From NCBI GenBank assembly GCA_900199595.1, contig FZRB01000021.1, forward strand, positions 1 through 64,000: a DNA stretch of 64,000 nucleotides. Reading direction: 5' to 3'. The DNA is from Lachnospiraceae bacterium (GTDB taxonomy: Bacteria; Bacillota; Clostridia; Lachnospirales; Lachnospiraceae). Made by a program: the position numbers and the translations under genes. Under the pieces are notes generated by a model. The model searched no databases and was not told the origin of the DNA. It was given only the letters and a program-made list of their open reading frames with translations. Positions 45,230 through 61,155 of this stretch are shown here, piece by piece (positions within the stretch are counted from its first letter, which is position 1; every line of letters begins with the position of its first letter).

Positions 45230-45262
45230 GTTGGACATCTGTTGGACAGTCTTCATTATAAT
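45230..45262 (+). promoter_or_regulatory. SARP-type promoter 1 (direct repeats plus -10) before RR2
   Basis: GTTGGAC at 45230-45236 and 45241-45247 (11-bp period), then 9 bases to TATAAT (45257-45262). It would drive the regulator at 45296 and the genes to 48810. The same layout occurs at 48847, 49500 and 61123. Confidence 0.8.
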
Positions 45263-45295
45263 TCCCTACGAAGAATAACATTCCAGGGAGTTGTA

Positions 45296-46066
45296 ATGAA
45301 GGCTGTTTTAGTTGATGACGAAAAACTGGGTCTGGATTATCTCGAAACCCTTTGTAGTAACATACCTGTTCTGAACGATATCAAAAGTTTCACCCGTTCT
45401 AAAAATGCGTATAAATGGTGTGAGGATAATCCTGTAGATATAATTATACTTGATATTAATATGCCTGATATTAATGGAATAACTCTCGTAACTAAGTTAA
45501 GAGAGATAAAACCTGATATCAGGGTTATTTTTGTTACTGCTTATGAGAAGTATGCTCTGGATGCATTTGGAGTTCATGCAGACGGTTATCTCCTTAAACC
45601 GGTTAATCAGGAGAATTTGACGAAAGAAGTAGAGTATGCTCTGTCAGACGTTAATGTAAATGCTCCCAATCATATAGTGGTGAAGACCTTTGGTGACTTT
45701 GAGGTTCTGGTGGATGGTGAACCGGTTACATTTTCAAGATCAAAATCCAAGGAGCTTTTTGCCTACCTTATAGACAGACAGGGCAGAGCAGTAAACAGAG
45801 CCAATATATTTTCAATACTGTGGGAAGACGGTGTGTATGACAGATCCAAGCAGAAACAGCTGGATGTTATAATAAGAAGTCTTAAGTCCACACTTCAGAA
45901 ATGTGGTATAAGTGAGATACTGGAAATGCATAGCGGTTCTATAAGGGTACGAACGGAACTTATTAACTGCGATATGTATAAATATCTGGAAGGTGACAAG
46001 GAAGCACAGAACAGTTATCAGGGGACATATATGACCCCATACAGCTGGGCAAGCTTCTCAGGTTAA
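45296..46066 (+). CDS. Response regulator with SARP-like DNA-binding domain (second)
   Basis: ATG at 45296 (MKAVLVDDEKLG), preceded by a GGGAG-like site; an in-frame TTG at 45242 lies inside the promoter and is rejected. Receiver: D53 in IIILDINMPDING, Thr in IFVTAYE, Lys in YLLKPVN. Output domain from IVVKTFGDFEVLVDGEPVTFSRSKSKELFAYLIDRQGRAVNRANIFSILWEDGVYDRSKQKQLDVIIRSL, closely similar to the first regulator, with the stub INCDMYKYLEGD. It is preceded by its own direct-repeat promoter, suggesting auto- or cross-regulation among the paralogues. Confidence 0.9.
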   Translation: MKAVLVDDEKLGLDYLETLCSNIPVLNDIKSFTRSKNAYKWCEDNPVDIIILDINMPDINGITLVTKLREIKPDIRVIFVTAYEKYALDAFGVHADGYLLKPVNQENLTKEVEYALSDVNVNAPNHIVVKTFGDFEVLVDGEPVTFSRSKSKELFAYLIDRQGRAVNRANIFSILWEDGVYDRSKQKQLDVIIRSLKSTLQKCGISEILEMHSGSIRVRTELINCDMYKYLEGDKEAQNSYQGTYMTPYSWASFSG

Positions 46067-46081
46067 AAAGGAGGGTTACAT

Positions 46082-46876
46082 ATGGTTACAATTTCAGTAG
46101 ATGATCAGCCGAAGGTATCTGAGGAAATCATAAAGATTATGTCAGAGATAGACCCGGGCGGAACACACACAGGCTATTCTGACATAAACCAGGCACTTGC
46201 TTACGTAAAAGAGAATAAGCCGGAAGTGGCATGGCTTGATATAGAAATGCCGGTTATGTCGGGACTTGAGCTGGCCATGGAGGTTAAGAAAGTCTCTCCT
46301 ATGACCAATATCGTTTTTGTCACAGGTCATGAGAAGTTTGCATACCAGTCCTTTCAGCTTCATGCCAGCGGTTTCGTATTAAAGCCTGTAACAAAAGAAG
46401 CTATCGAAAGAGAACTGGGTAATCTCAGAAATCCTGTGGAGATAAAAAAGAATGGTCTTATAAGGATTCAGTGCTTCGGTAACTTCGAGGTATTTGATAA
46501 GGACGGTAATCCTCTTAAATTCAGAAGAAGCAGGAGTAAGGAAATACTTGCTTATATGATAGACAGGCGTGGAGCTCTCTGTACCATAGGTGAACTCTGT
46601 GGAATTCTCTTTGAGGACAGAGAAGAGGACAGAGGACTTAAGAAGCAGATCAGAGTATTTATAGCAGGATTAAGAGATGCTCTCGGAAGTGTTGGAGCAG
46701 AGTCAATCCTTGTAAAGGGGTGGGATTCCTGTGGTATAGACACCTCTTTGGTAGACTGCGATTATTATGATTATTTAAAGGGTGACAGTGTTGCTGTCAA
46801 TTCCTTTATGGGTGAATATATGACACAGTACTCATGGTCAGAGATGACACTGGGTGAGTTAATAATGAAACCATAG
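46082..46876 (+). CDS. Response regulator with SARP-like DNA-binding domain (third, most divergent)
   Basis: An AAGGAGG site precedes MVTISVDDQPKVSEEI. Receiver: the first acidic patch reads VDDQ rather than VDDE, the phosphoacceptor D53 in AWLDIEMPVMSG is kept, Thr in IVFVTGHE, Lys in FVLKPVT. Output domain: LIRIQCFGNFEVFDKDGNPLKFRRSRSKEILAYMIDRRGALCTIGELCGILFEDREEDRGLKKQIRVFIAGLRDAL, then VDCDYYDYLKGD. It lies 15 bases after the second regulator in the same operon. The divergence in the recognition region suggests a different site preference or an interaction role. Confidence 0.88.
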   Translation: MVTISVDDQPKVSEEIIKIMSEIDPGGTHTGYSDINQALAYVKENKPEVAWLDIEMPVMSGLELAMEVKKVSPMTNIVFVTGHEKFAYQSFQLHASGFVLKPVTKEAIERELGNLRNPVEIKKNGLIRIQCFGNFEVFDKDGNPLKFRRSRSKEILAYMIDRRGALCTIGELCGILFEDREEDRGLKKQIRVFIAGLRDALGSVGAESILVKGWDSCGIDTSLVDCDYYDYLKGDSVAVNSFMGEYMTQYSWSEMTLGELIMKP

Positions 46877-46910
46877 TTGCTTCAAATAGTAACATATCCA
46901 AGGTGTTAAT

Positions 46911-47600
46911 ATGAAAGACAATATCGATCTAAAAGTTCTCCGGGCCCTTCCATACGCCGTTTTCACCATGTTTATTTCTATCATGTTTAGTATGGCCGGC
47001 CTGATTGTCAGGATAATAACCTCCGGCAGCGTGTCGGACTCCGCTCTGTATCAGATGGACAGTAATATCTATATGATATGCTATTTTATCATGTATGTTG
47101 CTGTTGTTCTTATCATGTCCTTTCTTTACGAAATGTCCAATATATCCAAGTGGTTTGGCTATGCATGCACTACAACGTTGGTATTTATTCTCTCGGAGAC
47201 AGTAGATTTTGTTGTCAGGTGGGCTGTTAGATATATTGATAACTATATGATCAAGATGGCATTGGTTGTTATATCAGAAATCATTCCGTCGCTCTGTATA
47301 GTTTTCCTTGTTATATTTATTCTGCATGGGATGATCGAACTGTACATGTTAATGGATAAAGAGAAGAAGGCTTTAAAATGTAAACGTTTCAGGGTGTACT
47401 GCATTATAGCCTTTGCTCTTCAGATACTTCTCAGCGCCCTTGCTTCTGCAAGTAATCAGAATAACAGGATTTTTATATTCTTTATAGTAACCGCGGGAGC
47501 TATCTACATATTTAATTTGATCATTATTTATTTCTTATATGGCAGGATAAAAACATTCTGCTATGATTTTTATCTATATTCATACAACAGCGGGAGGTAG
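46911..47600 (+). CDS. Multi-pass membrane protein in the kinase/regulator operon, unknown
   Basis: A 229-residue protein with about six to seven hydrophobic segments (for example AVFTMFISIMFSMAGLIVRII, IYMICYFIMYVAVVLIMSFLYE, LCIVFLVIFILHGMIELYML) and short loops. I recognise no family. It lies between the third regulator (35 bases upstream) and a histidine kinase (TTG start 4 bases downstream), and resembles in layout the 7TM sensor half of the first kinase. It could be a sensor or accessory subunit of the downstream kinase. AAGGTG precedes the ATG weakly. Confidence 0.75.
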   Translation: MKDNIDLKVLRALPYAVFTMFISIMFSMAGLIVRIITSGSVSDSALYQMDSNIYMICYFIMYVAVVLIMSFLYEMSNISKWFGYACTTTLVFILSETVDFVVRWAVRYIDNYMIKMALVVISEIIPSLCIVFLVIFILHGMIELYMLMDKEKKALKCKRFRVYCIIAFALQILLSALASASNQNNRIFIFFIVTAGAIYIFNLIIIYFLYGRIKTFCYDFYLYSYNSGR

Positions 47601-47604
47601 AGGC

Positions 47605-48810
47605 TTGAGAAGTATTTTCAGTTCGGCTTTTCTGATCGAAATGACTAACAAAATATTCATACTCGTTTCTATTCTTCTGGCGACAGTTGTTCTTATAGTG
47701 GCCTATAATATGAAGAACCATAACAGAAGGATGAGATATTTCCTTGGAAGTATAGCATTTGCCCTTGGAGGACTGATGCTTCAGATAGGCGGTTATACCA
47801 AGTATGCTTATGCCATGTATTCGCTGGCGGCGCCTGTTTTTACTCTTTACTTTATAGAGACAGAGCGCGACGACGAAGGAAATAGCTGGGACGGTTTTTT
47901 TTGGATGTCCCTCCAGTGTCTGGCGGCTGTGCTTTCTGTAATAATGGTTATTTTTACCGGCCGTGGTAATCTTGCGTTTCTCATTCAATTCTTAATAGTA
48001 ATAATCATGCTCCTCTTCTCCTCGAAGGACCTGAAGTCTTCAATTGGCTTCCTTATAGGGAGTATATTTCCCGTATCAGCCTGCCTTGCAGGTCTTCTGA
48101 ATAAGGATCTGAGGCTGATGGGCTTTGGTATTATTATGCTTCAGCTGATAGTTTTCTTCAGTTACCAGTACGATCTCGAGCGTGAGCTTATGAAAAATCA
48201 GGTCGAACTGTCCGAAAATAAAGTGGCGCTGCTTATGGAGCAGATGCACCCGCATTTCATATATAATGCTCTACAGCAGATAGCTCTTCTCTGTGATGAG
48301 GACCCTTCGGCGGTGAAACCGTCTATCTTCAGCTTCTCAGCATACCTTAGGAAGAATCTTGAGGCTCTTACAAATGAGAAGATGATTCCTTTCCTTACAG
48401 AAATGGAGCATGTTGATGCGTATGTTGAGTTGTCACAGATACTTCCGTCCAGGAAATTTGAACTCGTTAAAGATTTTCAGATAACAGATTTCTATATTCC
48501 GGCCCTTACAGTGCAGCCTTTAGTGGAAAATGCTATCTATTATGGCATAGGTATGAGCGAGGAAGGAAATGTAATCCGTCTTGAAACTAAGCTCGAGGAC
48601 GGTTATGTGATAGTCCGTGTTTCTGATGACGGGCACGGAAAAAGGACCAGTCTGCCGACGCAGAAAAAGCATAATAGTGTGGGTACAAAGAACGTAATTA
48701 CCCGTCTGAAGATACTTTGTGACGGAGAATTTATACTGAATAAGTCGGATAATGGTTCCGAGGCAATTATAAAAATCCCCGAATTTAGGGCGGTTGCGGG
48801 CGATAAATAA
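47605..48810 (+). CDS. LytS/YesM-type sensor histidine kinase (second)
   Basis: The start is TTG at 47605: GGGAGG lies 7 bases before it and the upstream gene ends at 47600. The in-frame ATG at 47563 lies inside that gene with no ribosome site. The N-terminal part has about six membrane segments. The kinase part has LLMEQMHPHFIYNALQQIALLCDEDP (H217), LTVQPLVENAIYYGIG, VSDDGHG and VGTKNVITRLKILC. It is paralogous to the 43043 kinase in the cytoplasmic half (shared FSAYLRKNLE-like and EMEHxxAYxE segments). Two kinases for three regulators suggests a branched phosphorelay. Confidence 0.9.
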   Translation: MRSIFSSAFLIEMTNKIFILVSILLATVVLIVAYNMKNHNRRMRYFLGSIAFALGGLMLQIGGYTKYAYAMYSLAAPVFTLYFIETERDDEGNSWDGFFWMSLQCLAAVLSVIMVIFTGRGNLAFLIQFLIVIIMLLFSSKDLKSSIGFLIGSIFPVSACLAGLLNKDLRLMGFGIIMLQLIVFFSYQYDLERELMKNQVELSENKVALLMEQMHPHFIYNALQQIALLCDEDPSAVKPSIFSFSAYLRKNLEALTNEKMIPFLTEMEHVDAYVELSQILPSRKFELVKDFQITDFYIPALTVQPLVENAIYYGIGMSEEGNVIRLETKLEDGYVIVRVSDDGHGKRTSLPTQKKHNSVGTKNVITRLKILCDGEFILNKSDNGSEAIIKIPEFRAVAGDK

Positions 48811-48846
48811 TATTTTTAAAAAAAAATAAAAAATATTTTTATCCGT

Positions 48847-48879
48847 GTTGCACTTTTGTTGCGCCCTTAGTGATATAGT
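48847..48879 (+). promoter_or_regulatory. SARP-type promoter 2 before the pilin gene
   Basis: GTTGCAC (48847-48853) and GTTGCGC (48858-48864) 11 bp apart, 9 bases, then TATAGT (48874-48879). Transcript start near 48886, leader about 65 bases. Confidence 0.78.
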
Positions 48880-48950
48880 TGTCTCATAAAATAAAAAACA
48901 CGCCGGAAAGGCAAACAAAAAAATCAGTTTAATCCAAGGAGGATGGGAGA

Positions 48951-49409
48951 ATGAGAAACAAAGTTATGAAAATGGTAAAGGGATTTACATCTAATCCAAA
49001 GGCTGTTATGGCAGCTAAGATCGTAGCAACAGCTATCGTGGCAGCAATCGGAGCGATCGCATACAGCACAGGCGCTTTTGCAGCAGGTGAGGTTGGAGCA
49101 GACTTCTCAGGAGTTACAAGCCCAATCGTAGGACTTATCAATTCACTTGTTAATCCGTTACTTGCAATCGTAGGAGCAGGCGGAACTATCTTCTGCATAT
49201 TCCTCGGTGTTAAGTTCGCTACAGCTGAAGAGCCACAGGAGAAGGAAAAGAGAAAGCAGGCACTTAAGACAGCCATCATCGGTTTCTTCCTTATATTCGT
49301 ACTTATGGCAGCACTTAAGCTTTCAATCAAGCCTATGACTGACTGGTATCAGGCAGCTACAGTTAGCACAAACAGCACACAGGCTCCTACAGAAGCTGAA
49401 ACGAAGTAA
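48951..49409 (+). CDS. VirB2/TrbC-like pilin subunit
   Basis: A 152-residue protein. A basic N-terminus and hydrophobic segment (about residues 18-44, ending TGAFAAGE) form a signal. Two hydrophobic helices follow (IVGLINSLVNPLLAIVGAGGTIFCIFLGVKF and ALKTAIIGFFLIFVLMAALKL) separated by a short charged loop (AEEPQEKEKRKQ), the two-helix layout of conjugative pilins of Gram-positive type IV systems. A Thr/Ser/Gln-rich tail ends it. AAGGAGG precedes the start. It has its own direct-repeat promoter and its own terminator, consistent with high stand-alone expression of a structural subunit. Confidence 0.8.
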   Translation: MRNKVMKMVKGFTSNPKAVMAAKIVATAIVAAIGAIAYSTGAFAAGEVGADFSGVTSPIVGLINSLVNPLLAIVGAGGTIFCIFLGVKFATAEEPQEKEKRKQALKTAIIGFFLIFVLMAALKLSIKPMTDWYQAATVSTNSTQAPTEAETK

Positions 49410-49436
49410 TACTTAATTAACCGATCGGATAATATG

Positions 49437-49476
49437 AAAATGTGACAGCAGAGCTATAACTCTCTGTCACATTTTT
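49437..49476 (+). terminator. Terminator after the pilin gene (TGACA family)
   Basis: AAAATGTGACAG plus AGAG (49437-49453) pairs with CTCTCTGTCACATTTTT (49460-49476). It separates the pilin transcript from the coupling-ATPase promoter. Confidence 0.88.
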
Positions 49477-49499
49477 ACTTAAAAATATAAATACTGTTT

Positions 49500-49532
49500 G
49501 TTGGACATTTGTTGGACTGGGTTTACTATAAT
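49500..49532 (+). promoter_or_regulatory. SARP-type promoter 3 before the coupling-ATPase gene
   Basis: GTTGGAC at 49500-49506 and 49511-49517, 9 bases, TATAAT (49527-49532). The heptamers and their spacing are identical to promoter 1 at 45230. Confidence 0.85.
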
Positions 49533-49577
49533 AATAATTTGAGGTATTATGTAACCCAGTGGTATAATAAACAATAT

Positions 49578-49604
49578 GTCATTCTGAGCTTAAGCGAAGA
49601 ATCT
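49578..49604. repeat. Copy of the ATTCTGA...GCGAAGAATCT repeat in a leader
   Basis: GTCATTCTGAGCTTAAGCG then AAGAATCT, with ATTCT and AGAAT arms pairing. It lies between promoter 3 and the ATPase start. The other copy is at 30825. Confidence 0.7.
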
Positions 49605-49620
49605 AAAGAAGGAATCTTAT

Positions 49621-51648
49621 ATGAATACAAGAACAAAAGTCATACTATATATCTTTGTATTATTGCTTGTTTCTGCTTTATCAGGTTTTCTTATGCGATC
49701 AATCGGATCGATGATAACCGATACTCTGAGCGGAGAGGGCTACAAGGTTGATCTGAGCCTGTTTCTTCAGTGGAAGACATGGGCCTTAGGTGCAGTTGGT
49801 GCGTTCTTTGTATTTCTCATATGGGTTCTGTCCGGAAGCAATCTGGATTCGCTGCTTATGGAAAAAAGCGGAGGTATGCTGGGAACCAAGAAGGGTAAGC
49901 CGGACGTAGTTACCGGATCTCTTGAAAACAGCCGTTTTCTTACAGAAAAGGAAAGAGATAAGTACTTCCCTGAACATGTATACAGCGCACTCAATGGTGT
50001 TAAGAAGGATGGTATTCCGGTAAGAGCCGTACTTGATAAAAAGAATACACTTCAGGTTAATTTCTATCCCGGTGCGCATTCACTTATCATCGGTGCTACC
50101 GGTTCCGGTAAAACAACCACATTCATCAATCCTATGATCCAGCTTCTGGGTGCTACTTCAGCCGGAAGTTCCATGATAATGACGGACCCTAAAGGAGAGC
50201 TTTTTGATCTTCATTCAAAGTTTCTGGTATCCAGAGGCTACAAGGTTCTTCTGCTGGATCTCCGTGATACATATTCGTCATCCAGATGGAATCCTCTTGA
50301 GGGTATCTGGGATATGTATCAGGAATATGTTGATGCTGGTAAGGGTATCAAGTTCCACAAGGACAGCATATCTGATTATCCGGATCTTAAGAAAATGGAT
50401 GGAGACGGTGAACCCGGAAAGCCATGGGCTGAGTGGAGAGGAAATGCTTATGCAGATCTGACTCACTGCCAGGATGATGTATCTGTTACAAGACAGAGAT
50501 TCTACGATGAGATGTATGAGGACTTAAACGACCTCATATCCGTTATATGTCCAATAGAAAATGAAAAGGATCCTGTATGGGAGAAGGGTGCCCGTTCAAT
50601 CATAATGGCTACCTGTCTTGCCATGTTGGAGGATTCGGAAGATGAACGACTTGGAATGACCAAGGATAAGTTCAACTTCTTCAATATAAGTAAAGCGCTT
50701 ACGAACTCAGAAGAAGAGTTCCGTGCGTTAAAAGAATATTTCGAGGGAAGAAGTAAGCTGTCTCAGGCCTATACACTTTCACGTCAGGTTCTTTCAGCTG
50801 CAGATACAACACTTTCCTCATACATGTCAATTACATTTGATAAGCTGAATATGTTTAACGACCGTGGACTCTGCGGTCTGACCTCAGCAACAGATGTGCA
50901 GGCTGAGAAGTTTGCTGATCAGCCTACAGCACTATTCATGAAGATACCTGATGAGAAGGATACACGTCATGGACTGGCGGCCGTATTTATTCTCTGTATG
51001 TATAAAGCACTTATCAAGGTGGCTTCAGCGAGAGAAGATCTGTCGCTTCCTAGAAATGTTTATTTCATCCTTGATGAGTTTGGTAATATGCCGAAGATAG
51101 AGAAGTTCGACAAGATGATCACAGTTGGACGTTCCAGAAAGATATGGTTTAACATGGTTGTTCAGTCTTATTCACAGCTGAATAACGTTTATGGAGAGAA
51201 GGTTGCAGATATAGTTAAATCTAACTGTGGTATGAAGATGTTCATCGGTTCCAATGATATTGGAACCTGTGAAGAATTCTCGAAGCTCTGCGGTAATATG
51301 ACAGTTCGTACTACTTCGACATCATCAAATGTAGGCTCCAAGGCGGGCGAGATGAATGTCTCCTCACAGACCCAGGTAAGACCTCTTATCTATCCGAGTG
51401 AGCTACAGATGCTTAACAACAAGGAAAGTACAGGAAATGCGATTATCGTTACCTTCGGTAACTACCCGCTCAGAACCAAATATACACCGAGTTATCTGTG
51501 CCCGTATTATAAGATGGGCAGAATGAACATGGACGAGCTTCGTTCACATATGTTCAGAGCTGACGAAGTGTATTACGATCTGGATGAGAGAAACGAAATC
51601 GTTCTCGGTAAGTCCGAAGACGAAGGTGATATGGATCAAAGTGCATAG
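49621..51648 (+). CDS. VirD4/TraG-like type IV coupling ATPase
   Basis: Recruits substrates to a type IV secretion channel. Two N-terminal membrane helices (about residues 7-27 and 50-72) are followed by a TraG-like region (GSLENSRFLTEKERDKYFPE). The Walker A is GATGSGKT at residues 158-165, then MIMTDPKGELFDLHSKFLVSRGYKVLLLDLRD. Walker B is YFILDEFGNMP (D485/E486), and KIWFNMVVQSYSQLNNVYGEKVADIVKSNCG follows. At 675 residues it is typical of VirD4/TcpA proteins of Firmicute ICEs. No relaxase gene accompanies it in the window. Ribosome site AAGGAA. It leads the operon that continues with the VirB6- and VirB4-like genes. Confidence 0.94.
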   Translation: MNTRTKVILYIFVLLLVSALSGFLMRSIGSMITDTLSGEGYKVDLSLFLQWKTWALGAVGAFFVFLIWVLSGSNLDSLLMEKSGGMLGTKKGKPDVVTGSLENSRFLTEKERDKYFPEHVYSALNGVKKDGIPVRAVLDKKNTLQVNFYPGAHSLIIGATGSGKTTTFINPMIQLLGATSAGSSMIMTDPKGELFDLHSKFLVSRGYKVLLLDLRDTYSSSRWNPLEGIWDMYQEYVDAGKGIKFHKDSISDYPDLKKMDGDGEPGKPWAEWRGNAYADLTHCQDDVSVTRQRFYDEMYEDLNDLISVICPIENEKDPVWEKGARSIIMATCLAMLEDSEDERLGMTKDKFNFFNISKALTNSEEEFRALKEYFEGRSKLSQAYTLSRQVLSAADTTLSSYMSITFDKLNMFNDRGLCGLTSATDVQAEKFADQPTALFMKIPDEKDTRHGLAAVFILCMYKALIKVASAREDLSLPRNVYFILDEFGNMPKIEKFDKMITVGRSRKIWFNMVVQSYSQLNNVYGEKVADIVKSNCGMKMFIGSNDIGTCEEFSKLCGNMTVRTTSTSSNVGSKAGEMNVSSQTQVRPLIYPSELQMLNNKESTGNAIIVTFGNYPLRTKYTPSYLCPYYKMGRMNMDELRSHMFRADEVYYDLDERNEIVLGKSEDEGDMDQSA

Positions 51649-51680: not shown

Positions 51681-51692
51681 TATAAGCAAAAC

Positions 51693-52802
51693 ATGAGTCG
51701 ATTAAAAACATACAATATGATAACCCGTAAAATCAGCCAAATAACACTGGCTTTCTTAGTTGCACTCATTTTTACCATTGCTTTTTCATCAGAAAACAGC
51801 TCTTTGATAATAGATTCATTCGTTCCTGCAGTTCATGCTGCCGGTGAGGATGAAGAAGAAAACACAAGCTTTAAGGTGCAGGAAGACAGCACTGAGAGCT
51901 CAAAGTATAAGCCTGACGAGACAGGATTTGTTGATTATTCAGGTGATGTTGATATCTATACCGGTAAACCGGTAGATGATAATGATGATAATACCAGGAA
52001 TTCATACTATATAGCTATTAAGGATGGATCCACATATGATGCTGAGCACAGCATGTTTATATATACTCTGGAGAATGGTACATTTAGCTGCTCAGTATGT
52101 GACGGAATGGTTGTTACAAACCCCGTTTTACTCGAAAAAGAAGGAGAGTACAATGTTGCTCTTTATCGTAACGGTGTTAAGGTTGACGGGATTCCTGCCA
52201 CAGTTACAGATCCGGGTTCATATGTAGTTATTACCTGGGACAATGAAAGTGAAAACCAGCTGATGTCCTTCCAGATAGTTGAAAAAGAAACCGGAAGGAT
52301 CAATCAGTATATAATCCCTCAGGGCTTTACCATTAAAACAGTTTATCTTGATGGTGAACTTCAGAAGAACAGCTTCGGTTCTGTTGATATGACCAAGGAA
52401 GGCTATTACGAGATCTGTTACAGATGTTCTGCAACAGGAATAGATTATTATCTGAATGTAACTACGGATCATACCCCTCCTGATGTTACATTTGAGGGAA
52501 TTGACAGTAATTCAAAGGCAAAGGGTCCTGTTACTTTAAAGGGACTTCAGGAAGGAGATACAGTATATATCCTTCTTAATAGTGACGAAACAGGAAAAAT
52601 GAATTACCAGAACCAGATAACCAAGGAAGGTGAATATCACGTAACGGTTATGGATAAGGCCGGTAATTCAATAAGCAGAGATTTTATAATTATGTTTTAT
52701 CTGAACGTGAAGGGTGTATTTTTCCTTTCACTGATTGTAGTACTTATAATTGGAGTTTTGATAGCACTTTATATTTCAAGAAAGAGATTGAGAGTAAGAT
52801 AG
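51693..52802 (+). CDS. Exported, C-terminally anchored Ig-like protein of the secretion cluster
   Basis: Signal segment (about residues 12-50, AAGEDEE after cleavage), an acidic linker, then two or three beta-rich regions. The last (HTPPDVTFEGIDSNSKAKGPVTLKGLQEGDTVYILLNS...GEYHVTVMDKAGNS) resembles bacterial Ig-like folds of surface proteins. A C-terminal transmembrane helix (FFLSLIVVLIIGVLIALYI) and an RKRLRVR tail fix it in the membrane facing outward. I do not recognise it as a named type IV component. Its place between the coupling ATPase and the VirB6-like gene (1 base gap) argues for an apparatus or adhesion role. Confidence 0.78.
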   Translation: MSRLKTYNMITRKISQITLAFLVALIFTIAFSSENSSLIIDSFVPAVHAAGEDEEENTSFKVQEDSTESSKYKPDETGFVDYSGDVDIYTGKPVDDNDDNTRNSYYIAIKDGSTYDAEHSMFIYTLENGTFSCSVCDGMVVTNPVLLEKEGEYNVALYRNGVKVDGIPATVTDPGSYVVITWDNESENQLMSFQIVEKETGRINQYIIPQGFTIKTVYLDGELQKNSFGSVDMTKEGYYEICYRCSATGIDYYLNVTTDHTPPDVTFEGIDSNSKAKGPVTLKGLQEGDTVYILLNSDETGKMNYQNQITKEGEYHVTVMDKAGNSISRDFIIMFYLNVKGVFFLSLIVVLIIGVLIALYISRKRLRVR

Positions 52803-52803: not shown

Positions 52804-55800
52804 ATGTTTGATGGCTTAATAGATACAGTGAAAGGCTGGATAGCCTCGTTTATAGAGTTCACTCTTTGGAGAATCTTCTGGTTCGTAGAGATAATGGTTG
52901 TCAAATTCGTTGGCTTTGTGGAAAGTATCATGGAGATATTTACTGGCGAAAGGACTGTTAAGTACAATGATTCTGACAAGACACTTATTAATATATTCTT
53001 TGAACATGAATCTGTAAGAGGAATATATGGTGGAATGGCGTTAATAGGAATCGTATTCTGTTTTGTATTCGCCATTATCTCGGTTATTAGAAGAGCGCTT
53101 GATCTGAGAGATAAGCAGCAGGGAGTAACAATGGGAATGATTCTTACGAATCTTCTTAAGAGTATTCTCATCATATCTAGTATGAATCTTATCATGCTTG
53201 TCGCTATAGAAACCACTAACAAGCTTGTTCAGCAGGTAAGCTGGACTATTCAGAATGGTGGTAACCTAGCGGTTGGTGGTGATACGATTACATTTACAAA
53301 TGAACAATACGCTGCCATGGGCAGGATAATTAATACATTAGGTAACTATTCTTTGAATCCGTCATATAAGTCCAGGTACAATCTGAACGCCTGCTATAAT
53401 GATATCAGAGTGGATCTTAAGTATCTGGGTGACCAGGGAGTGTTTAATTTCCATTATCTTGAAGAGGATCCGAAAACCGGAAAAACTATTCAATCCTGGC
53501 AGAGCCTGATGGAAAAGCTGGCGACGGCTTATGATTACAGCTCAGAAGTTCCTCTGGATTCCTACAATGATGGTGTCATAAATGCTGTCACAGACTGTAT
53601 GGAAATACTAAAAAAGAACCCGACAATGAAGGTTCATAAGAAATATAACAGAAAAGAAGAGGCATTTTCTCGGAAGAAAAAGGTTCCTATGGACAGAATT
53701 CTTTTCCTTGTAGGAACTATGGGGATAGACTCTAATAATGCGGCTGCAAGAAATAAGGAATACAACAAGAATCCAAGTTTCTTTGATAATGCGAGACTTC
53801 CGTTCTATTACGGAGAACAAGGATCGGATATATACAGTTATGATGATGTCAGAAAAGTATTTGATCCGAGCCCGTTTTATACAAATTATGTATTGGTATG
53901 GTTTTCAGGTCTTGCAATACTGAAGGAAATGCTGGTACTTATAGTAACCTGTTCAGTTAGAATATTTAACCTGCTTGCTCTTTATATAGCAGCGCCTCTG
54001 GCAATAGCAACTATGCCGATGGATGACGGTGGTAAATTCAAGCAGTGGACAACGGCGTTTATAGTACAGCTTCTTACTATAGTAGGTATGGTTATAGCCA
54101 TGAGACTTTTCCTGATGTTCATACCTATCATATGGAGTCCTGCGCTTAAAACATCTGATAATCCGCTATTGGACTGTATAATAAAGATGGTAATTCAGTA
54201 TGGTGCGGTGCTTTCGGTTAACAAGGTAAATGGTATCTTCACCGGAATCCTTGCTGATAATGCCGGATTCCAGGCTATAACAGCCGGTGATGTAAGACAG
54301 AATGTTGAAAACGGTGCTGCTGGAAAGATGCTTTCAGGCATGGGCGCCGGTGCTATGGCAGAGAAAGCTTTTGGTAAGGGAAGGGCCGCGCTTGGCAAAC
54401 AGATAGGAAAGCACAGTTCAAAGGCTGCATATCTTACTGATGCGATTGGTCTTACAGAGGGCGCCTACGAGGGCAGTAAAGACAGGCAGAACAAAGAAGA
54501 TGATAAGAAAGCCGGTAAGGCTCGTAAGAATATGAGAGATGCTAATAAGCTTGAACAGGATCTTGATTCCATGAAGAAACATGGTCAGCATCTTGATGGT
54601 ACTAAACCAAAGAACGAGAAAGATAAGAAGAACCAGATTAAGAAGATGGAAAACACTCTCAAGTACATGAAGGCCGGTAATGGTCAGACGAGTCTTAAGG
54701 ATGCCAAGAGAATGGCTGAGCGTGACATGAAAGAGGATAAGATGGATCAGCAGCAACAGGGCGAAATCGAAGCTATGAAGCTCAAGAATCCACCTCCAAA
54801 GAGACAGCCGGGAGCTACTAAGAAAAATGATGAAGTCAGCAAACCAGGCAGCAGACCAGGATCAGGAGGCGGACCAGGAAGTGGACCGGCACCTACACCA
54901 GGATATGGACCAGGACCGGCACCAGGACCAGCGCCAGGACCTATACCAGATGGTTCCGAAGGTGAACAAGATCTTCCAAACAGACAGGAAGTGGAAAGTG
55001 GCGGAACAGGAGAAAATAACAATACTAATACTCCTGGTGGTGAAGGTACGAATATCAACACTAATCAGCCTGAAGATCTGAATCAGACTAATCAGGGAAC
55101 TCAGGTAGGTGATGCACCACCTGGAGTTGATAATAATGCTACACCAGGAACTGATCAGAACAATACCACCAATACCAATACCAATACCGGTACTCAGCAG
55201 CCTCCGTTTGGAACACCTAATCAGAATAGTGGACCACACATAGGCGGTGGAGACGATGATGACGATGATGATGAAGTACCATTCAATCAGTCAAATCAGA
55301 ATACACAGGTAGGTGGTAATCCGACAAATTTTAACCAGACGTCGACTGGAATGATGAACGATCAGAATAATACAGCTCAGTCGACGAATTATACCCAGAC
55401 GAATCCGACGGCTAATACTCAGGGTGGCCCTCAGCCTAATCTGAATCAGCCGAATCAGTTCCAGCAGGTGGGTGGAACTCCGCAGATGAACACAAACAAT
55501 CCGCAGATGAATACAAACAATCCGCAGATGAACACAAACAATCCGCAGATGAACACAAACAATCCGCAGATGAACACAAACAATCAGCAGATGAACACAA
55601 ACAATCCGCAGATGAACATGAACAACCCGCAGATGAACATGAACAACCCGCAGATGAACGTGAATAATCCGCAGATGAACATGAACAACCCGCAGATGAA
55701 CACTAACAATATAAACATTAATAACACAAATACATCGACGGGAAACGTAAATTATGATCCTATGGGTGGAAATCAGTATAATCCAATGGGAAATAATAAC

Positions 55801-55824
55801 CCTACGGGAACAAACACCCCCTAA
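52804..55824 (+). CDS. VirB6/TrbL-like channel protein with long low-complexity tail
   Basis: About 500 N-terminal residues hold an amphipathic start and six or more membrane helices (GIYGGMALIGIVFCFVFAII, GMILTNLLKSILIISSMNLIMLVAIE, and a cluster around 365-460 with LLALYIAAPLAIATMPMDDGGKFKQWTTAF). This is the TrbL/VirB6 (CD1107-neighbour) pattern of Firmicute T4SS. The rest is unusual: a Lys/Glu-rich cytoplasmic-type linker (560-660), a Pro-Gly stretch (PGPAPGP type, about 690-720), an Asn/Gln/Thr-rich region with an Asp run, and eleven PQMNTNN-type heptads (residues 893-969). The gene starts 1 base after the previous stop. Confidence 0.85.
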   Translation: MFDGLIDTVKGWIASFIEFTLWRIFWFVEIMVVKFVGFVESIMEIFTGERTVKYNDSDKTLINIFFEHESVRGIYGGMALIGIVFCFVFAIISVIRRALDLRDKQQGVTMGMILTNLLKSILIISSMNLIMLVAIETTNKLVQQVSWTIQNGGNLAVGGDTITFTNEQYAAMGRIINTLGNYSLNPSYKSRYNLNACYNDIRVDLKYLGDQGVFNFHYLEEDPKTGKTIQSWQSLMEKLATAYDYSSEVPLDSYNDGVINAVTDCMEILKKNPTMKVHKKYNRKEEAFSRKKKVPMDRILFLVGTMGIDSNNAAARNKEYNKNPSFFDNARLPFYYGEQGSDIYSYDDVRKVFDPSPFYTNYVLVWFSGLAILKEMLVLIVTCSVRIFNLLALYIAAPLAIATMPMDDGGKFKQWTTAFIVQLLTIVGMVIAMRLFLMFIPIIWSPALKTSDNPLLDCIIKMVIQYGAVLSVNKVNGIFTGILADNAGFQAITAGDVRQNVENGAAGKMLSGMGAGAMAEKAFGKGRAALGKQIGKHSSKAAYLTDAIGLTEGAYEGSKDRQNKEDDKKAGKARKNMRDANKLEQDLDSMKKHGQHLDGTKPKNEKDKKNQIKKMENTLKYMKAGNGQTSLKDAKRMAERDMKEDKMDQQQQGEIEAMKLKNPPPKRQPGATKKNDEVSKPGSRPGSGGGPGSGPAPTPGYGPGPAPGPAPGPIPDGSEGEQDLPNRQEVESGGTGENNNTNTPGGEGTNINTNQPEDLNQTNQGTQVGDAPPGVDNNATPGTDQNNTTNTNTNTGTQQPPFGTPNQNSGPHIGGGDDDDDDDEVPFNQSNQNTQVGGNPTNFNQTSTGMMNDQNNTAQSTNYTQTNPTANTQGGPQPNLNQPNQFQQVGGTPQMNTNNPQMNTNNPQMNTNNPQMNTNNPQMNTNNQQMNTNNPQMNMNNPQMNMNNPQMNVNNPQMNMNNPQMNTNNININNTNTSTGNVNYDPMGGNQYNPMGNNNPTGTNTP
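55480..55710 (+). repeat. Eleven 21-base tandem repeats in the VirB6-like gene
   Basis: In-frame units of 21 bases (consensus CCGCAGATGAACACAAACAA plus T) encoding PQMNTNN. Units 1-6 are nearly identical. Units 7-10 carry ATG or GTG in place of ACA (Met or Val for Thr). Such repeats commonly change copy number between strains. Confidence 0.95.
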
Positions 55825-55859
55825 CAATAATGGTTAATTATTAAGGGTAACAAACTCGA

Positions 55860-55881
55860 GCAGGAGCGGACGCGCTCCTGC
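55860..55881 (+). other. GC-rich hairpin between the VirB6- and VirB4-like genes
   Basis: GCAGGAGCG, GACG loop, CGCTCCTGC; no T tract, so not an obvious terminator. It could be an mRNA processing or stability element that tunes downstream expression. Confidence 0.55.
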
Positions 55882-55913
55882 CCGGGAAAATACATACGTA
55901 ACAAGAGTTATAA

Positions 55914-58900
55914 ATGAGATTAATACCAGGAAAAACTAAAGTAAAGATTGAGGTATTCAAGCACATAACATTAGCCGACATAATCGTCGGCCTTATTGGC
56001 TTAGTTGCTGTTACCTTATGCGCAGTTTCATCTCTGCCCGGACGCTGGATAATAGCCGGAATCGTGGCGGCTGTTTTTGCGTTACTCCTTTTCAGACTTG
56101 ATGATGAACCGCTGTATGTCTTCATGTGGAATATGATGAAGTATTTTGCATATCCTAGAAGACTTGTTCGTGTATACGATGATAAGGCGATAAAGAATAT
56201 ATCCAAGGGAGACAGACAGGCAATCCTGGATGATTTCTTTGGCGAGGAGAATGGAGAAGGAGCAGAAAAGTCAGAGACTGCTGCTGAGACTTCAGCCCCA
56301 AAAGTTTCGCAGGTATCCGTAAATGAAGATGAGGATGTATCATTTAATGATATGTTTTCAGAAGAATCAGAAGAAGGATCCGAGTCAGAGGAAGACTATG
56401 AGTCTGAGGGACCTGAGGCTGCTCCCGAATCAGAATATACGGAAGAAACAGAAACATCGGTAGAAGTAGAAAAAGCAGAAGAGTCAGAAGAGGCGGATTC
56501 ATATATCGATGCTCTTGAAAAACAGGACAAAATAAATGAAGAGCTGAAAGAGATACAGAAGGATAAGAAGGCAGAAAAGAAACGTCTCAAACAGCTTATA
56601 AAGGAAGAAAATAAGATACTTAAGAGCAAGACTGCAACACCTGAAGAAAAGGATGCAGTCTGGCTTGCGAGGGCTGAAAGAAGCGCTGAAAAGAAAAAGG
56701 AAAAAGTTGAAAATAAGGAACAGGATGCTTCTTATGAGGAAATGAGTGACTTTATTCCTTTTACAGGAATAAGTGATAATTGTATCGACTATAACGGACA
56801 GTATTATGGTTCGGTTATTGAGATAGATCCAATAGCTTTCAGATTCTTCTCAGAGCATAGACGTAACAACTCAATTGAGAGTTGTCTTGGAAAGATTCTC
56901 AGAGGTCTTACAGGAGACTATGGCGCAAATATCGTAAAGATACAGCGTCCGATCATGTATGATGCTCATCTTGATGCAGAGTATGATAAGCTGGATGCAC
57001 TTAAAAAATCCTACGAGAGTGGACTTCTTACAGAAGAAGAACTCCAGGCCAGAGTTGAGATACAGTATGATCGTATAAATGAAGTACAGCTTCTTTGTAA
57101 TGAAGACAGAGTTATAGATCCTTTCTATTATCTCGTACTTTTTGAGTCAGATAAGAGAAGACTGGATACATTTACCAGACAGGCTATCATGACTCTTGAG
57201 CAGGGCGAGATGATCGTAAGAAGACTTGATAACAAGGGGCTTGCGCTTTTCCTGAAGTACACAAATCATCTTGATTTTGATGAAAGAGAAATAGATGACA
57301 TAGCAGAAGATCAGTGGGTTAACTGGGCTATGCCTCAGAGCCTTAAGTTTAGTATGAGAACTGCAGTAGTAGATGGTATCATAACTCATAACATGAGAGT
57401 TATATCCTTCCCTACTGTTGTTGGAGATTCATGGCTTGCAGGAGTTATGTCCTTCCCAAGTACAAAGGTTGTAGTTAAAGCGACCCCTATGGACAGAACG
57501 AAGGCTATTAAGTCTATCGACCGTTCGCTTGCTGAACTACGAGGACAGTATATGTCCACCAGTATCGATTCAAAGATGATCGAACTGCAGGAGCATATTA
57601 CCACACTGTCATCGCTTCTGGTTACTCTTCAGCAGGACAACGAAGCACTGCTTTCAGTAAATATATACATAACAGCCTATGATGCTATGATGACCGCCAA
57701 TGATCCTGTTCTTTCTCAGGACTTCAACACCATGATGCCATACGTGGCAGACATGAAGAAGACTCTGAAGAGAAACTGGAGTGAAGAAGGCATGAAACTG
57801 TCCGGAATGGACTTCCTTCAGATACAGAGTTTTATAGGTTCACAGATTTCCGCATATGATCCTATGCTTAAGGATGCCAGGGGAATTCCATCGAACACAA
57901 TTGCCGGAATGTTTCCTTGGATTTTTGCGCATACATCTGATGTTGGTGGTATACAGCTCGGTTCATCCGACAGCGTACCTGTATTTATAGATTTCTTCAA
58001 GAGAAATGAAGAACGTGTAAATTCCAATATGGTTATCGTAGGTAAGTCCGGTTCCGGTAAATCCTACGCTACCAAGTCACTTCTTACAAACCTTGCTTCA
58101 GAGGATGCAAAGATATTTATTCTCGATCCTGAGAACGAGTATTCACAGCTTGCTCATACTCTTCATGGTAAGGTAATAAATGTAGGAAATGCAAAGTTTG
58201 GACGACTGAATCCGTTCCATATTATAACTGCTCTCGATGATGATGAGGCGGGAACAGAGGGCGGCGGCCCTGGTGGAAGCTTTGCTACACATCTTCAGTT
58301 CCTGGAAGAGTTCTTCAGACAGATACTTCCTGATATCGATAAGGAAGCTCTGGAGTACCTCAATTCACTGGTTGAGAGAGTATATCTTAATTTCGGAATC
58401 ACTCCGGACACGGATCTGTCAGGCTTTACAGCTGATGATTATCCTATATTTGATGATCTCTATGATGTAATCCTTGCAGAGTTTGAAAGAACAAACAACG
58501 AGTACCTGAGAAATCTTCTCAGATCTCTCGTTAACTATATATCCAAATTCTCAACAGGCGGTCGAAATGCAAATATCTGGAACGGACCTTCTACAGTTAC
58601 CACAGAAGAGAACTTCTCGGTATTTAACTTCCAGTCTATGCTTGCGAACAGAAACTCAACTATCGCAAATGCACAGATGCTGCTTGTACTGAAGTATGTG
58701 GATAACGAGATAATTAAGAATAGAGATTACAATACAAAGTATGGTCTTAACAGAAAGATCGTAGTTGTAATCGATGAGGCCCATGTATTTATCGATACCA
58801 AGTTCCCTATAGCCCTGGACTTTATGTTCCAGCTGGCTAAGCGTATCCGTAAGTATAACGGTATGCAGATAGTTATTACTCAGAATATCAAGGACTTCGT

Positions 58901-60770
58901 AGGTAGTGAGGATATAGCAAGAAAATCATCTGCAATCATAAATGCGTGCCAGTATAGCTTTGTATTCGGTCTTGCGCCAAATGATATGTCAGATCTTTGT
59001 AAGCTCTATGAGAAGGCCGGCGGTATAAATGAGACCGAGCAGGAGGATATCCTTCAGGCTAAGCGTGGTGAGGCATTTACCATCATGAGCCCGACATCAA
59101 GATCATCTTTCCTGATCGAGGTACCGGATTCTTTCGTAGACATGTTTGAGAATAATAACTTTACAAGTAATTATTTCTCCGGTTACGAGGGTGCTGAGGT
59201 CTGGGAGGACTTTGTAAGTGAAAGCAGAGAAGCTCACGACAGGAACTATGAAGATCGTATACAGCTCGAAAATGTAGAGAGTTCCAGAAGAGAGCTTAAG
59301 AGCTCATTTAACTTCAGTGAGATAAGTGAAGAAGAGGCCGAGGAAGCAGCTCAGGCACCACAGAGTGCTGTAGACAAGATGATAGCTGCCGAGGAATATG
59401 TAAATCAGAAGGAACTCGAGATACTAACCGGACGCTTCGGAAATATTACTCTTCAGGAATTAAGCGAAGAAGAAGCAGAGGCCGAGGAAGCAGAAGAAAT
59501 AGCAGGCTCAACCGGTGGAGATTATTCAGAAGTTCAGCCTGAACCGGCGGAGGATCAGCAGGGTTATACAGAGTCAGATGATGACTTCGATATAGAATTA
59601 ACAGAAGGAGCTCCTATCAACATAGAACCGGAGCCAGAAGAAGAACCTGAAGAAAAGCCGGCTCCTAAGCAGGAGAAGATTTACAGATTCTCACATAATG
59701 GAGAAGAAAGAACTGTTTCAGTACCTGAAGCAGCTGAACAGATACCAACACAGCCGGTATACATACCCGGAAATGCACCTCAGTATGGAGCGCCGGCGGC
59801 TTATGGAGCACCCGGAACAGCACCGGCTGCAGCAGGAACAGTACCTGCATATACAGCAGCGGGACAGCCGATATATGGTGGAGTACAGGTTGGAGCAGCA
59901 GGCTATGGAGTTCCCACCGGAGTACCTGCAGGTTATGGTACTGCAGCACCTGTATATAATACACCGGCAGGTGAAAAGGTATATACCCAGGCAGAGGTTG
60001 ACCAGGTACTGGATTCCTTCAAAAAATCACTCAGAGAAGAACTTGAGAAAGATCTTGAAGATAAGTTGAAGTGGATTGCCCTCGGAGCAACAGCTGCAGG
60101 AGTTGGAGCTGGAACTGTGGGAGCAACAGCAGGAACTGGTGTTTCTGCAGGAACAGGAGTGGCTGCCACATCAGTTACGGAAGCAGCGGCAGCTGCCACA
60201 GCAGCCGGAGTTGGAACAGAGGCTCATGTCAAGGTATCAGCCGAAGATATGGCGGCTGAGGAAGAAGAAAAGGTTGCATTAGGAATCACAGATGAAGAAG
60301 CAGAAGATGAATTCATCAGCGGTCTTGGAGAAACAGATAAAGACTATGATGAAACAGAAGACGAATTCGAAGGCTTTGCTTCCGATGAAGAAGAAGAGGA
60401 TGAGGATGAATTCTTCTTCGATGAAAACGAAGAGGATGAGGGATACATCCCTGACGAAGACGATGAAGATGATGATATCTACGCTCCTGATGAACCTGAT
60501 GATGATGATGAAGACTTATATGAGGATGAGGACGAAGATGAAGATTACTTCTCCGATGATGAAGATGAAGATGAAGACTTTGACTTTGACAGTGATTCAG
60601 AAGAGTATGAGCCTGCACCATTCCTGTTTGCAGAGCTCTTAGCAGAAGCTGCAGACGAATACGCAAGTATGGATCTGGAAGAAAGAATGGAAGAGATGAA
60701 CGAGATGGTGCTCGAAGTAACCGTAGAAGAACTCAGCGAGTACATCAAGCAGCAGCGTAAGAAGAAATAA
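55914..60770 (+). CDS. PrgI-VirB4 fusion ATPase of the type IV secretion cluster
   Basis: Residues 1-95 form a PrgI-like membrane module with two adjacent helices (ITLADIIVGLIGLVAVTLCAV, WIIAGIVAAVFALLLFRL, then PLYVFMWNMMKYFAYPRR). After an acidic and a coiled-coil segment (about 115-260) comes the VirB4 ATPase. Walker A is GKSGSGKS at 710-717, and ILDPENEYSQLAHTLHGKVI and Walker B VVVIDEAH (D954/E955) follow, with ITQNIKDFVGSEDIARKSSAIINACQYSFVFGLAP. Beyond residue 1130 the protein is disordered: Pro/Ala/Gly repeats, a Gly/Ala-rich hydrophobic stretch, and about 110 residues very rich in Asp/Glu, ending in a helix with KKK. At 1618 residues it is roughly twice a typical VirB4. Confidence 0.92.
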   Translation: MRLIPGKTKVKIEVFKHITLADIIVGLIGLVAVTLCAVSSLPGRWIIAGIVAAVFALLLFRLDDEPLYVFMWNMMKYFAYPRRLVRVYDDKAIKNISKGDRQAILDDFFGEENGEGAEKSETAAETSAPKVSQVSVNEDEDVSFNDMFSEESEEGSESEEDYESEGPEAAPESEYTEETETSVEVEKAEESEEADSYIDALEKQDKINEELKEIQKDKKAEKKRLKQLIKEENKILKSKTATPEEKDAVWLARAERSAEKKKEKVENKEQDASYEEMSDFIPFTGISDNCIDYNGQYYGSVIEIDPIAFRFFSEHRRNNSIESCLGKILRGLTGDYGANIVKIQRPIMYDAHLDAEYDKLDALKKSYESGLLTEEELQARVEIQYDRINEVQLLCNEDRVIDPFYYLVLFESDKRRLDTFTRQAIMTLEQGEMIVRRLDNKGLALFLKYTNHLDFDEREIDDIAEDQWVNWAMPQSLKFSMRTAVVDGIITHNMRVISFPTVVGDSWLAGVMSFPSTKVVVKATPMDRTKAIKSIDRSLAELRGQYMSTSIDSKMIELQEHITTLSSLLVTLQQDNEALLSVNIYITAYDAMMTANDPVLSQDFNTMMPYVADMKKTLKRNWSEEGMKLSGMDFLQIQSFIGSQISAYDPMLKDARGIPSNTIAGMFPWIFAHTSDVGGIQLGSSDSVPVFIDFFKRNEERVNSNMVIVGKSGSGKSYATKSLLTNLASEDAKIFILDPENEYSQLAHTLHGKVINVGNAKFGRLNPFHIITALDDDEAGTEGGGPGGSFATHLQFLEEFFRQILPDIDKEALEYLNSLVERVYLNFGITPDTDLSGFTADDYPIFDDLYDVILAEFERTNNEYLRNLLRSLVNYISKFSTGGRNANIWNGPSTVTTEENFSVFNFQSMLANRNSTIANAQMLLVLKYVDNEIIKNRDYNTKYGLNRKIVVVIDEAHVFIDTKFPIALDFMFQLAKRIRKYNGMQIVITQNIKDFVGSEDIARKSSAIINACQYSFVFGLAPNDMSDLCKLYEKAGGINETEQEDILQAKRGEAFTIMSPTSRSSFLIEVPDSFVDMFENNNFTSNYFSGYEGAEVWEDFVSESREAHDRNYEDRIQLENVESSRRELKSSFNFSEISEEEAEEAAQAPQSAVDKMIAAEEYVNQKELEILTGRFGNITLQELSEEEAEAEEAEEIAGSTGGDYSEVQPEPAEDQQGYTESDDDFDIELTEGAPINIEPEPEEEPEEKPAPKQEKIYRFSHNGEERTVSVPEAAEQIPTQPVYIPGNAPQYGAPAAYGAPGTAPAAAGTVPAYTAAGQPIYGGVQVGAAGYGVPTGVPAGYGTAAPVYNTPAGEKVYTQAEVDQVLDSFKKSLREELEKDLEDKLKWIALGATAAGVGAGTVGATAGTGVSAGTGVAATSVTEAAAAATAAGVGTEAHVKVSAEDMAAEEEEKVALGITDEEAEDEFISGLGETDKDYDETEDEFEGFASDEEEEDEDEFFFDENEEDEGYIPDEDDEDDDIYAPDEPDDDDEDLYEDEDEDEDYFSDDEDEDEDFDFDSDSEEYEPAPFLFAELLAEAADEYASMDLEERMEEMNEMVLEVTVEELSEYIKQQRKKK

Positions 60771-60783
60771 TAGGAGGAAAACT

Positions 60784-61086
60784 ATGGATATCAAATTAGT
60801 GGCAAGAGAAGATGAAGGCGAACTTATTATGTCAGGAGATCTTGATACAAGGACCTCAAAGGATGCGGATGCACTCTTCTCTCAGATGGCTGACAGATTT
60901 AAGAATATAGTACTTAACATGAAGGATCTGGAATATGTATCCAGTGCGGGACTTCGTGCGATTCGTAATCTGTATATAAAAGTAAATCAGAACGGTGGCA
61001 AGCTGTCTCTTACTAATGTTAATGAAAATGTTATGGAGGTCTTTGAAATGACCGGACTTGCAGGCCTCCTGAATATTAGAGAATAA
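60784..61086 (+). CDS. STAS-domain protein (anti-sigma-factor antagonist type)
   Basis: A 100-residue single STAS domain: GELIMSGDLDTRTSKDADALFSQM, then IVLNMKDLEYVSSAGLRAIRNLYIKVNQNGGKLSLTNVNENVMEVFEMTGLAGLLNI. The serine of the VSSAGLR motif sits where SpoIIAA/RsbV-type proteins are phosphorylated. In known partner-switch systems such a protein frees a sigma factor or another target from an anti-sigma kinase. No HATPase anti-sigma kinase or phosphatase gene is visible nearby. It lies 13 bases after the VirB4-like gene with an AGGAGG site, so it belongs to the same operon. Confidence 0.9.
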   Translation: MDIKLVAREDEGELIMSGDLDTRTSKDADALFSQMADRFKNIVLNMKDLEYVSSAGLRAIRNLYIKVNQNGGKLSLTNVNENVMEVFEMTGLAGLLNIRE

Positions 61087-61122
61087 TCTGTCTGATTAGT
61101 AAAAAATTATTTTTTTCACAGT

Positions 61123-61155
61123 GTTGCGCTTTTGTTGTTATGTGGGGGATATAAT
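61123..61155 (+). promoter_or_regulatory. SARP-type promoter 4 before the large exported protein
   Basis: GTTGCGC (61123-61129) and GTTGTTA (61134-61140) 11 bp apart, 9 bases, TATAAT (61150-61155). Transcript start near 61162. Confidence 0.78.

Follow-up and report, generated by a model that had tools for sequence, protein, structure and literature searches.

Four direct repeats, each followed at a constant distance by a -10-like hexamer, lie in a 64,000-nucleotide stretch of a Lachnospiraceae bacterium genome (assembly GCA_900199595.1, contig FZRB01000021.1, positions 1 to 64,000 of the forward strand; referred to below as the window), and raise the question of which regulators they serve and which genes they control. 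Our answer is that they are probably activator-dependent promoters of a genome-wide regulon, in which two-component systems with an output domain of the Streptomyces antibiotic regulatory protein (SARP) type drive a type IV secretion system (T4SS) together with giant candidate substrates. The repeats were described in an initial annotation as pairs of heptamers that begin with GTTG, and all four were found exactly where, and with the letters that, it had given:

45230..45262, + strand: site 1, GGAC flavour, GTTGGACATCTGTTGGAC-N9-TATAAT, 6 bp past the stop codon of response regulator RR1; stands before the genes for RR2, RR3, a membrane protein and sensor kinase HK2
48847..48879, + strand: site 2, GCRC flavour, GTTGCACTTTTGTTGCGC-N9-TATAGT, before the pilin gene
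49500..49532, + strand: site 3, GGAC flavour, GTTGGACATTTGTTGGAC-N9-TATAAT, before the coupling ATPase operon
61123..61155, + strand: site 4, GCRC flavour, GTTGCGCTTTTGTTGTTA-N9-TATAAT, before the gene for a 2241-aa secreted protein

The pattern that defines a site consists of two GTTG heptamers arranged as 7+4+7 bp, followed by N9 and a TANNNT hexamer. On both strands of the window it matches these four positions and none besides, while 100 dinucleotide shuffles of the window gave 0.01 matches on average and never four. In the 3.49 Mb genome the pattern has 25 matches, as compared with 3 for the reversed pattern; the motif is thus in excess, and not at the random genome-wide frequency that had been named as evidence against a regulon. 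When the -10 condition is dropped (pattern GTTGNNNNTNTGTTG), 30 genome sites are obtained against 6 for the reversed control. A TANNNT hexamer then begins exactly 12 bases past the second GTTG in 22 of the 30, and no other offset between 5 and 24 accounts for more than 4. Because this search still gives a single dominant offset, the distance to the -10 element is not imposed by the search. Two counts in the genome gave 22 and 23 sites at this offset, a difference that probably reflects two neighbouring, opposite sites sharing one stretch.

The 22 sites share the consensus GTTGCRCWTTTGTTG, after which come a variable tail and a hexamer resembling TATAAT. For a spacing of 17 bp, the position of a -35 element reads CRCWTT, which is unlike TTGACA. 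A simple sigma-70 promoter was ruled out on these grounds, and the sites therefore look like promoters that would need an activator. The two heptamers also mirror each other in their variable letters, as expected of a true direct repeat. In a scan of 348 genomes of the family (G numbers below), which gave 125 listed sites in 62 genomes and 27 more counted for G000, G160 and G002, the letters of the listed sites agree in 222 of 375 cases against 111 expected (0/10000 permutations). With one site per genome, which is the only correction for genome kinship in this test, 101 of 186 agree against 51 expected. GTTG repeats are short, and could in principle be chance repeats or members of a mobile repeat family, but the genome count of 25 against 3, the constant -10 distance and the conserved targets make this explanation practically negligible; the flanks, moreover, are unlike from site to site, which does not fit a mobile family.

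The targets of the 25 genome sites are non-random. Sixteen sites lie -2 to 150 bp before large open reading frames (ORFs), here called the arsenal, and five lie in or near the T4SS locus, with distances measured to mechanically called start codons. The contig of the window (C9) has five of the 25, placed before RR2, the pilin, the coupling ATPase, the 2241-aa secreted protein and another secreted protein (C9:79685). Contig C43 has eleven, each before a large ORF, and five more precede arsenal-type ORFs on contigs C4, C13 (two), C27 and C33, four of which have BLAST matches to the C43 set. Of the remaining sites, one precedes a STAS gene, one the gene for a 116-aa Nif11-type peptide (PF07862), one on C16 deviates from the consensus, and one (C2:104369) has a SpoIIE-type phosphatase 2.7 kb further on, the nearer stretch not being clearly assigned. 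The original interpretation is thus supported in part; a regulon limited to four promoters is ruled out by the 25 genome matches (30 without the -10 condition). As for the suggested check on a concentration before T4SS genes, five of the 25 sites are in or near that locus, and 16 stand before arsenal ORFs.

The regulators that are most likely to bind these sites are encoded in the window immediately upstream of the secretion genes:

43043..44392, + strand: HK1, sensor kinase, His_kinase (PF06580) and HATPase_c
44406..45224, + strand: RR1, receiver, SARP-like winged helix and a short BTAD-like stub
45296..46066, + strand: RR2, receiver and a similar output domain; the ATG at 45296 was chosen as start, since the longer ORF from 45242 begins within site 1
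46082..46876, + strand: RR3, receiver and a similar output domain, with R replacing D in the recognition helix
46911..47600, + strand: predicted membrane protein between RR3 and HK2, function not assigned; weak homologues (24-28%) occupy the same place in loci L107 and L108
47563..48810, + strand: HK2, sensor kinase (PF06580)

A fold search with full-length RR1 was uninformative as receiver domains filled the results, and the output domain was therefore modelled alone. The model predicts a SARP-type winged-helix fold that runs on into the first BTAD helices; the SARP references include PDB entries 8k60 and 8hvr, and the match of the model to the OmpR/PhoB type is weaker. In the Pfam search the receivers are clear, and Trans_reg_C falls just under the cut-off in RR1 and RR2 and is unreported in RR3. 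A complete BTAD (PF03704) has no match in RR1-RR3 at E 0.1, nor in the own genome and five relatives at E 0.001. Of the SARP-like output earlier assigned to the three response regulators, the predicted fold thus holds up, and the BTAD is reduced to a stub.

A direct link between regulators and sites comes from their adjacency. In 11 cases a site begins 6-73 bp past the stop codon of a SARP-like response regulator gene, on the same strand (one in the window, six in T4SS loci L115, L116, L113, L134, L152 and L196, and four in L122-L125); the underlying table has 44 rows, of which two with receiver domains and one for a duplicated locus were not used. The last four cases come from genomes G199, G285, G104 and G051, in which no close VirB4 was found (G104 has a 26% match). 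In a by-eye alignment, the recognition-helix residue follows the letters of the adjacent site: D occurs with GGAC in six of six cases and R with GCRC in three of three, and there are single cases of T with GTCC and H with GTAC/GGAC. Genomes in which the sole regulator found is of the D type have listed sites that are all GG (G075 with eight, G215 and G245 with two each), and G330, which has an R-type RR3 orthologue, has listed sites that are CC or CT (seven and two). GGAC sites stand before RR3-type genes in the window, L141, L148, L107 and L253. The helix-site pairing and the RR3-type genes behind GGAC sites therefore suggest an order in which RR1-type regulators would act before RR3-type regulators, followed by pilin, secreted protein and arsenal.

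Two observations bear on how far such regulators extend. In L122 (G104) and L123 (G051) a sensor kinase, a SARP-like response regulator and a site are followed by other genes, including large exported-looking ones, and a close VirB4 relative was not found; the regulator-site module may serve other cargo besides this machine. In G191, G093, G227 and G138 another kind of site recurs, GTTGTTTATTTGTTG or GTTG(C/T)(T/C)TTTTTGTTGTGA, with TATA-like hexamers and, in G191 and G093, in pairs about 1.9 kb apart. These are perhaps the sites of another regulator of the same type.

The geometry of the sites had been likened to that of Streptomyces SARPs, and this comparison stands: in the parts of the literature consulted, SARPs, AfsR above all, recognize direct repeats of heptamers, separated by 4 bp and located some 8 bp upstream of the -10 element (PMC7040171), in agreement with the 7+4+7 bp and, in this register, the 9 bp to the hexamer found here. 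As proof of a SARP, however, geometry alone was dropped, because PhoP, of the OmpR/PhoB family, is likewise reported to have 7-bp direct repeats separated by 4 bp (PMC4832192). An ordinary regulator of the OmpR/PhoB type, or some other factor, could accordingly bind the sites, with the three SARP-like proteins as bystanders, and further OmpR-type response regulators are indeed encoded upstream in the window, at 32622 and 37144. We consider this quite unlikely in view of the 11 sites located directly behind SARP-like regulator genes, including four from genomes in which no close VirB4 was found, and the covariation of recognition-helix residue and site letters. Among the 125 listed sites, eight such adjacencies are seen where about 0.004 would be expected by chance, a rough estimate that takes 1.3 response regulator genes per genome.

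The secretion genes downstream of the regulators, and a cell wall hydrolase upstream of them, are as follows:

41870..43027, + strand: cell wall hydrolase (PF07486), with a possible VirB1-like role suggested by its position
48951..49409, + strand: T4SS pilin (PF18895; NCBIfam Mbov_0395 family)
49621..51648, + strand: VirD4-type coupling protein (NCBIfam CD1115 family, E 1e-86)
51693..52802, + strand: exported protein whose Ig-like Pfam matches are weak and below the cut-off; relatives retain it in the operon
52804..55824, + strand: VirB6-like transmembrane protein (NCBIfam MMCAP2_0566 / Mbov_0396)
55914..60770, + strand: VirB4 ATPase (best NCBIfam match Mbov_0397, E 3e-154, under the cut-off of the model)
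60784..61086, + strand: STAS domain protein; several relatives have it in their T4SS operon too
61363..64000, + strand: secreted 2241-aa protein with a PLAT domain, continuing beyond the window to contig position 68088

VirB4, VirD4, a VirB6-like protein and a pilin are thus encoded together, as judged by NCBIfam and Pfam. The gene order coupling protein, Ig-like protein, VirB6-like protein and VirB4 recurs in many of 20 mapped stretches, albeit with losses and insertions; a pilin often precedes it, and a STAS protein and a giant secreted protein often follow. VirB4 carries an acidic C-terminal extension of 519 residues with a net charge of -122. The extension is present in the measurable close orthologues of the family and in the complete named relatives listed (bar L189, apparently a misread row), whereas all seven family VirB4s of a sister group with 51-54% identity lack it; in this comparison the sequences of G330 and G332 end early, at a stop or a contig end.

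Between 9.4 and 118 kb, contig C43 is a near-continuous island of large genes, of which 21 ORFs count as arsenal by module (see below) or site, and nine more are alike in size and tail without having either. Under the strict rule, 26 arsenal ORFs lie within the fetched stretches of the genome, a count that omits the ORF behind the second C13 site, which runs off its stretch; contig C21 adds another ORF with module A. Pfam reports nothing at E 0.01 in 23 of the 26. One is an ADP-ribosylglycohydrolase, and two have weak PI-kinase/Fam20-like matches, the kinase-like group reaching E 2.5e-4 against FAM20A in a PDB profile search; modules A and D had no convincing match in searches of this type. 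All-versus-all BLAST reveals a mosaic of common pieces. Three recurring modules, A, C and D, are found for the most part in the C-terminal half. Of 43 site-driven ORFs of at least 400 aa without a hydrophobic N-terminus (own genome and relatives), 29 carry such modules, as do 18 of 201 other ORFs of the same stretches, which by eye are neighbours or operon partners of the same type. A basic character and many K, R, Q, N, A, P, S and T residues mark the tails: a net charge of at least +3 in the last 30 residues is found in 33 of the 43 and in 57 of the 201 (p 5e-9), a conservative test since the 201 include the 18 module-bearing ORFs.

The modules track the machine. With an orthologue defined by at least 51% identity, VirB4 is present in 20 of the 348 family genomes. 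Module A occurs in nine genomes, eight of which have a VirB4 orthologue (p 2e-10), while in the ninth, G331, which is 68% complete, VirB4 is matched in part. Module D occurs in seven, all with a VirB4 orthologue (p 7e-10). The opposite charges of the VirB4 tail and the arsenal tails suggest that the one may dock on the other.

Both the role of the machine and the purpose of its cargo can be read differently. The closest named models of the machine are conjugation proteins of plasmids and of integrative and conjugative elements (ICEs), one relaxase exists elsewhere in the genome, and secretion of the large proteins is our own inference; the T4SS might thus serve conjugation, the large proteins being ordinary products of the cytoplasm or of a mobile element that have no more than a regulator in common with it. 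This is unlikely for several reasons. A PF03432 relaxase, the one relaxase family searched, is absent from the T4SS contig, the sole match in the genome being on C43 at 223 kb, and the ten upstream genes scanned in the window (32622-44389) appear to encode metabolic, envelope and regulatory functions with no evident mobile element. Arsenal modules that track this VirB4, the basic tails and the acidic VirB4 extension also speak against it. The second alternative accepts secretion but directs it at other bacteria instead of eukaryotes. The rumen is a crowded habitat, and T4SSs for contact-dependent killing do exist, as in Xanthomonas, where according to the parts of the source consulted the effectors are paired with immunity genes (PMC6536674). 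Such pairing is not apparent on C43, where large ORFs follow each other almost back to back from 9.4 to 98 kb with six ORFs of 100-320 aa among them, the range in which immunity genes were sought; smaller ones were not looked for. An antibacterial arsenal is doubtful, though less so than conjugation, and the two weak Fam20/PI-kinase-like matches and the ADP-ribosylglycohydrolase leave the type of target undecided. The XVIPCD family of the Xanthomonas effectors was not reported by Pfam at E 0.01 in the 26 proteins, no targeted comparison having been made.

Conservation of the regulon among relatives is evident but partial. The reversed pattern gave 30 matches (hand sum) in the 348 family genomes. 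Genomes with at least two listed sites have a VirB4 orthologue in eight of 16 cases, as compared with 12 of the other 332 (p 2.5e-7). In 80 named loci around VirB4 relatives (L numbers), 31 sites without the -10 condition stand against nine reversed matches, and 19 have the hexamer at N12; nine sites precede pilin genes (eight loci), seven a homologue of the secreted protein, and two RR3 genes (both GGAC type, in L141 and L148). Six of eight named genomes have between two and 14 sites each, with two reversed matches in total; Eubacterium ruminantium FB3002 has 14, Lachnospiraceae strains YSB2008 and C6A11 nine and 14. In other genera, too, arsenal-like ORFs are preceded by sites. Of the 80 locus records, 21 state an animal or gut source (18 ruminant, three horse), the other 59 being silent. 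In strain C6A11 (locus L275), an ORF whose start resembles that of a type IV pilin (GFTLVELIVVLVI) has a site about 306 bp upstream.

A number of observations weigh against a regulon of this kind. Lachnospiraceae C10 and R. flavefaciens YRD2003, two of the eight named genomes, have a VirB4 orthologue yet no site. With the tight pattern, the same is true of nine of the 20 VirB4-bearing family genomes, and G046 and G111 have one match each that looks like background. When the ORFs within 1.5 kb behind 30 sites of the named genomes were compared by BLAST, nine matched the own arsenal and three the machine or a response regulator, 15 matched nothing and three sites had no ORF; some sites of relatives precede small ORFs or secreted proteins, or fall inside ORFs. 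The second heptamer has a degenerate tail at many arsenal promoters. The helix-site rule is supported by just 11 cases, and regulator genes with the same output domain in L256, L254 and L255 have no site within the fetched stretch. A first profile of the output domain, made from three sequences, ranked an OmpR-type chain (E 0.019) over EmbR (0.41). As for the arsenal, 14 of the 43 proteins have none of modules A, C and D, the absence of a signal peptide was called by a crude hydrophobicity rule, and G114 combines sites before large ORFs with a tail-less VirB4, which misfits the docking idea.

Taken together with the evidence for SARP-type control, the following mechanism can be envisaged. HK1-RR1 and RR2/RR3-HK2 would bind the 7+4+7 bp direct repeat just upstream of the -10 element and switch on their own second tier (RR2-RR3-HK2). 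They would also turn on a conjugation-derived T4SS, comprising pilin, VirD4, VirB6-like protein, VirB4, STAS protein and other conserved partners with the giant secreted protein, as well as some dozens of giant cytoplasmic proteins as its likely substrates. RR1-type regulators may read the GTTGGAC sites (RR2-RR3-HK2 and the coupling ATPase operon), and RR3-type regulators the GTTGCRC sites (pilin, secreted protein and arsenal). The basic tails of the effectors may dock on the acidic tail of VirB4, on VirD4, or on both. In its widest form, the proposal is a dedicated protein-injecting T4SS with at least 30 giant effectors in many rumen-type Clostridia, possibly directed against eukaryotes such as ciliates or fungi, under a two-tier cascade of SARP-type response regulators and with recruitment by the VirB4 tail; to this whole we give a little less than an even chance.

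Compared with known systems, as far as the cited sources were consulted, the closest regulatory parallel is found in Legionella. Two-component winged helix-turn-helix regulators, PmrAB and CpxRA, turn on scattered Icm/Dot effector genes there, about 40 for PmrA, and CpxR also turns on T4SS genes (PMC6989116). Two-component control and scattered effector genes, both here predicted, are shared features, whereas the Gram-positive-type T4SS, the SARP-type output, direct repeats at the -10 element and the apparent two-tier cascade beside the machine are not. The regulators resemble Streptomyces SARPs such as AfsR in predicted output-domain fold and repeat geometry, and differ in the fusion to a receiver, the stub-like BTAD, their occurrence in Clostridia and their position before secretion instead of antibiotic genes. 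Homologues of the pilin, VirB6, VirB4 and VirD4 are found in Mycoplasma and Clostridium ICEs (Mbov_0395/0396/0397, CD1115), unlike which the present machine has no PF03432 relaxase nearby, and has an acidic VirB4 extension, a STAS partner and effector-like cargo. As for the Xanthomonas-type killing T4SS, the candidate effectors have common C-terminal domains, but the machine is Gram-positive and no immunity genes are evident among ORFs of 100-320 aa. Protein export by a Gram-positive T4SS has been argued for 89K of Streptococcus suis, with one substrate named, and a 2025 review treats dedicated effector translocation by such systems as a long-standing question in which 89K is apparently the first case (PMC12857230). 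Export is proposed in both, with a multi-genus regulon and many candidate substrates here. No published description of such a regulon was found in the open-licence literature by titles and abstract openings.

Because the DNA signature of the regulon lists candidate substrates genome by genome, named strains included, the question of effector T4SSs in Gram-positive bacteria becomes testable. If the proposal is correct, rumen ecology would gain a new class of cell-contact weapons or manipulators, and SARP-type regulators a role beyond antibiotic control.

Two further observations concern genes at the margin of the regulon. Genes for STAS, HATPase_c_2 and SpoIIE-phosphatase proteins recur in and beside it (window 60784-61086, L066:6570-6869, L061:7919-8416, L056:6156-9230 and L065:9061-10500), and a partner-switching module may add a further level of control on secretion. 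The Nif11-type peptide gene behind a regulon site (L068:5430-5777, corresponding to contig C15:24429-24776, minus strand) possibly encodes a precursor of a ribosomally synthesized and post-translationally modified peptide under the same control.

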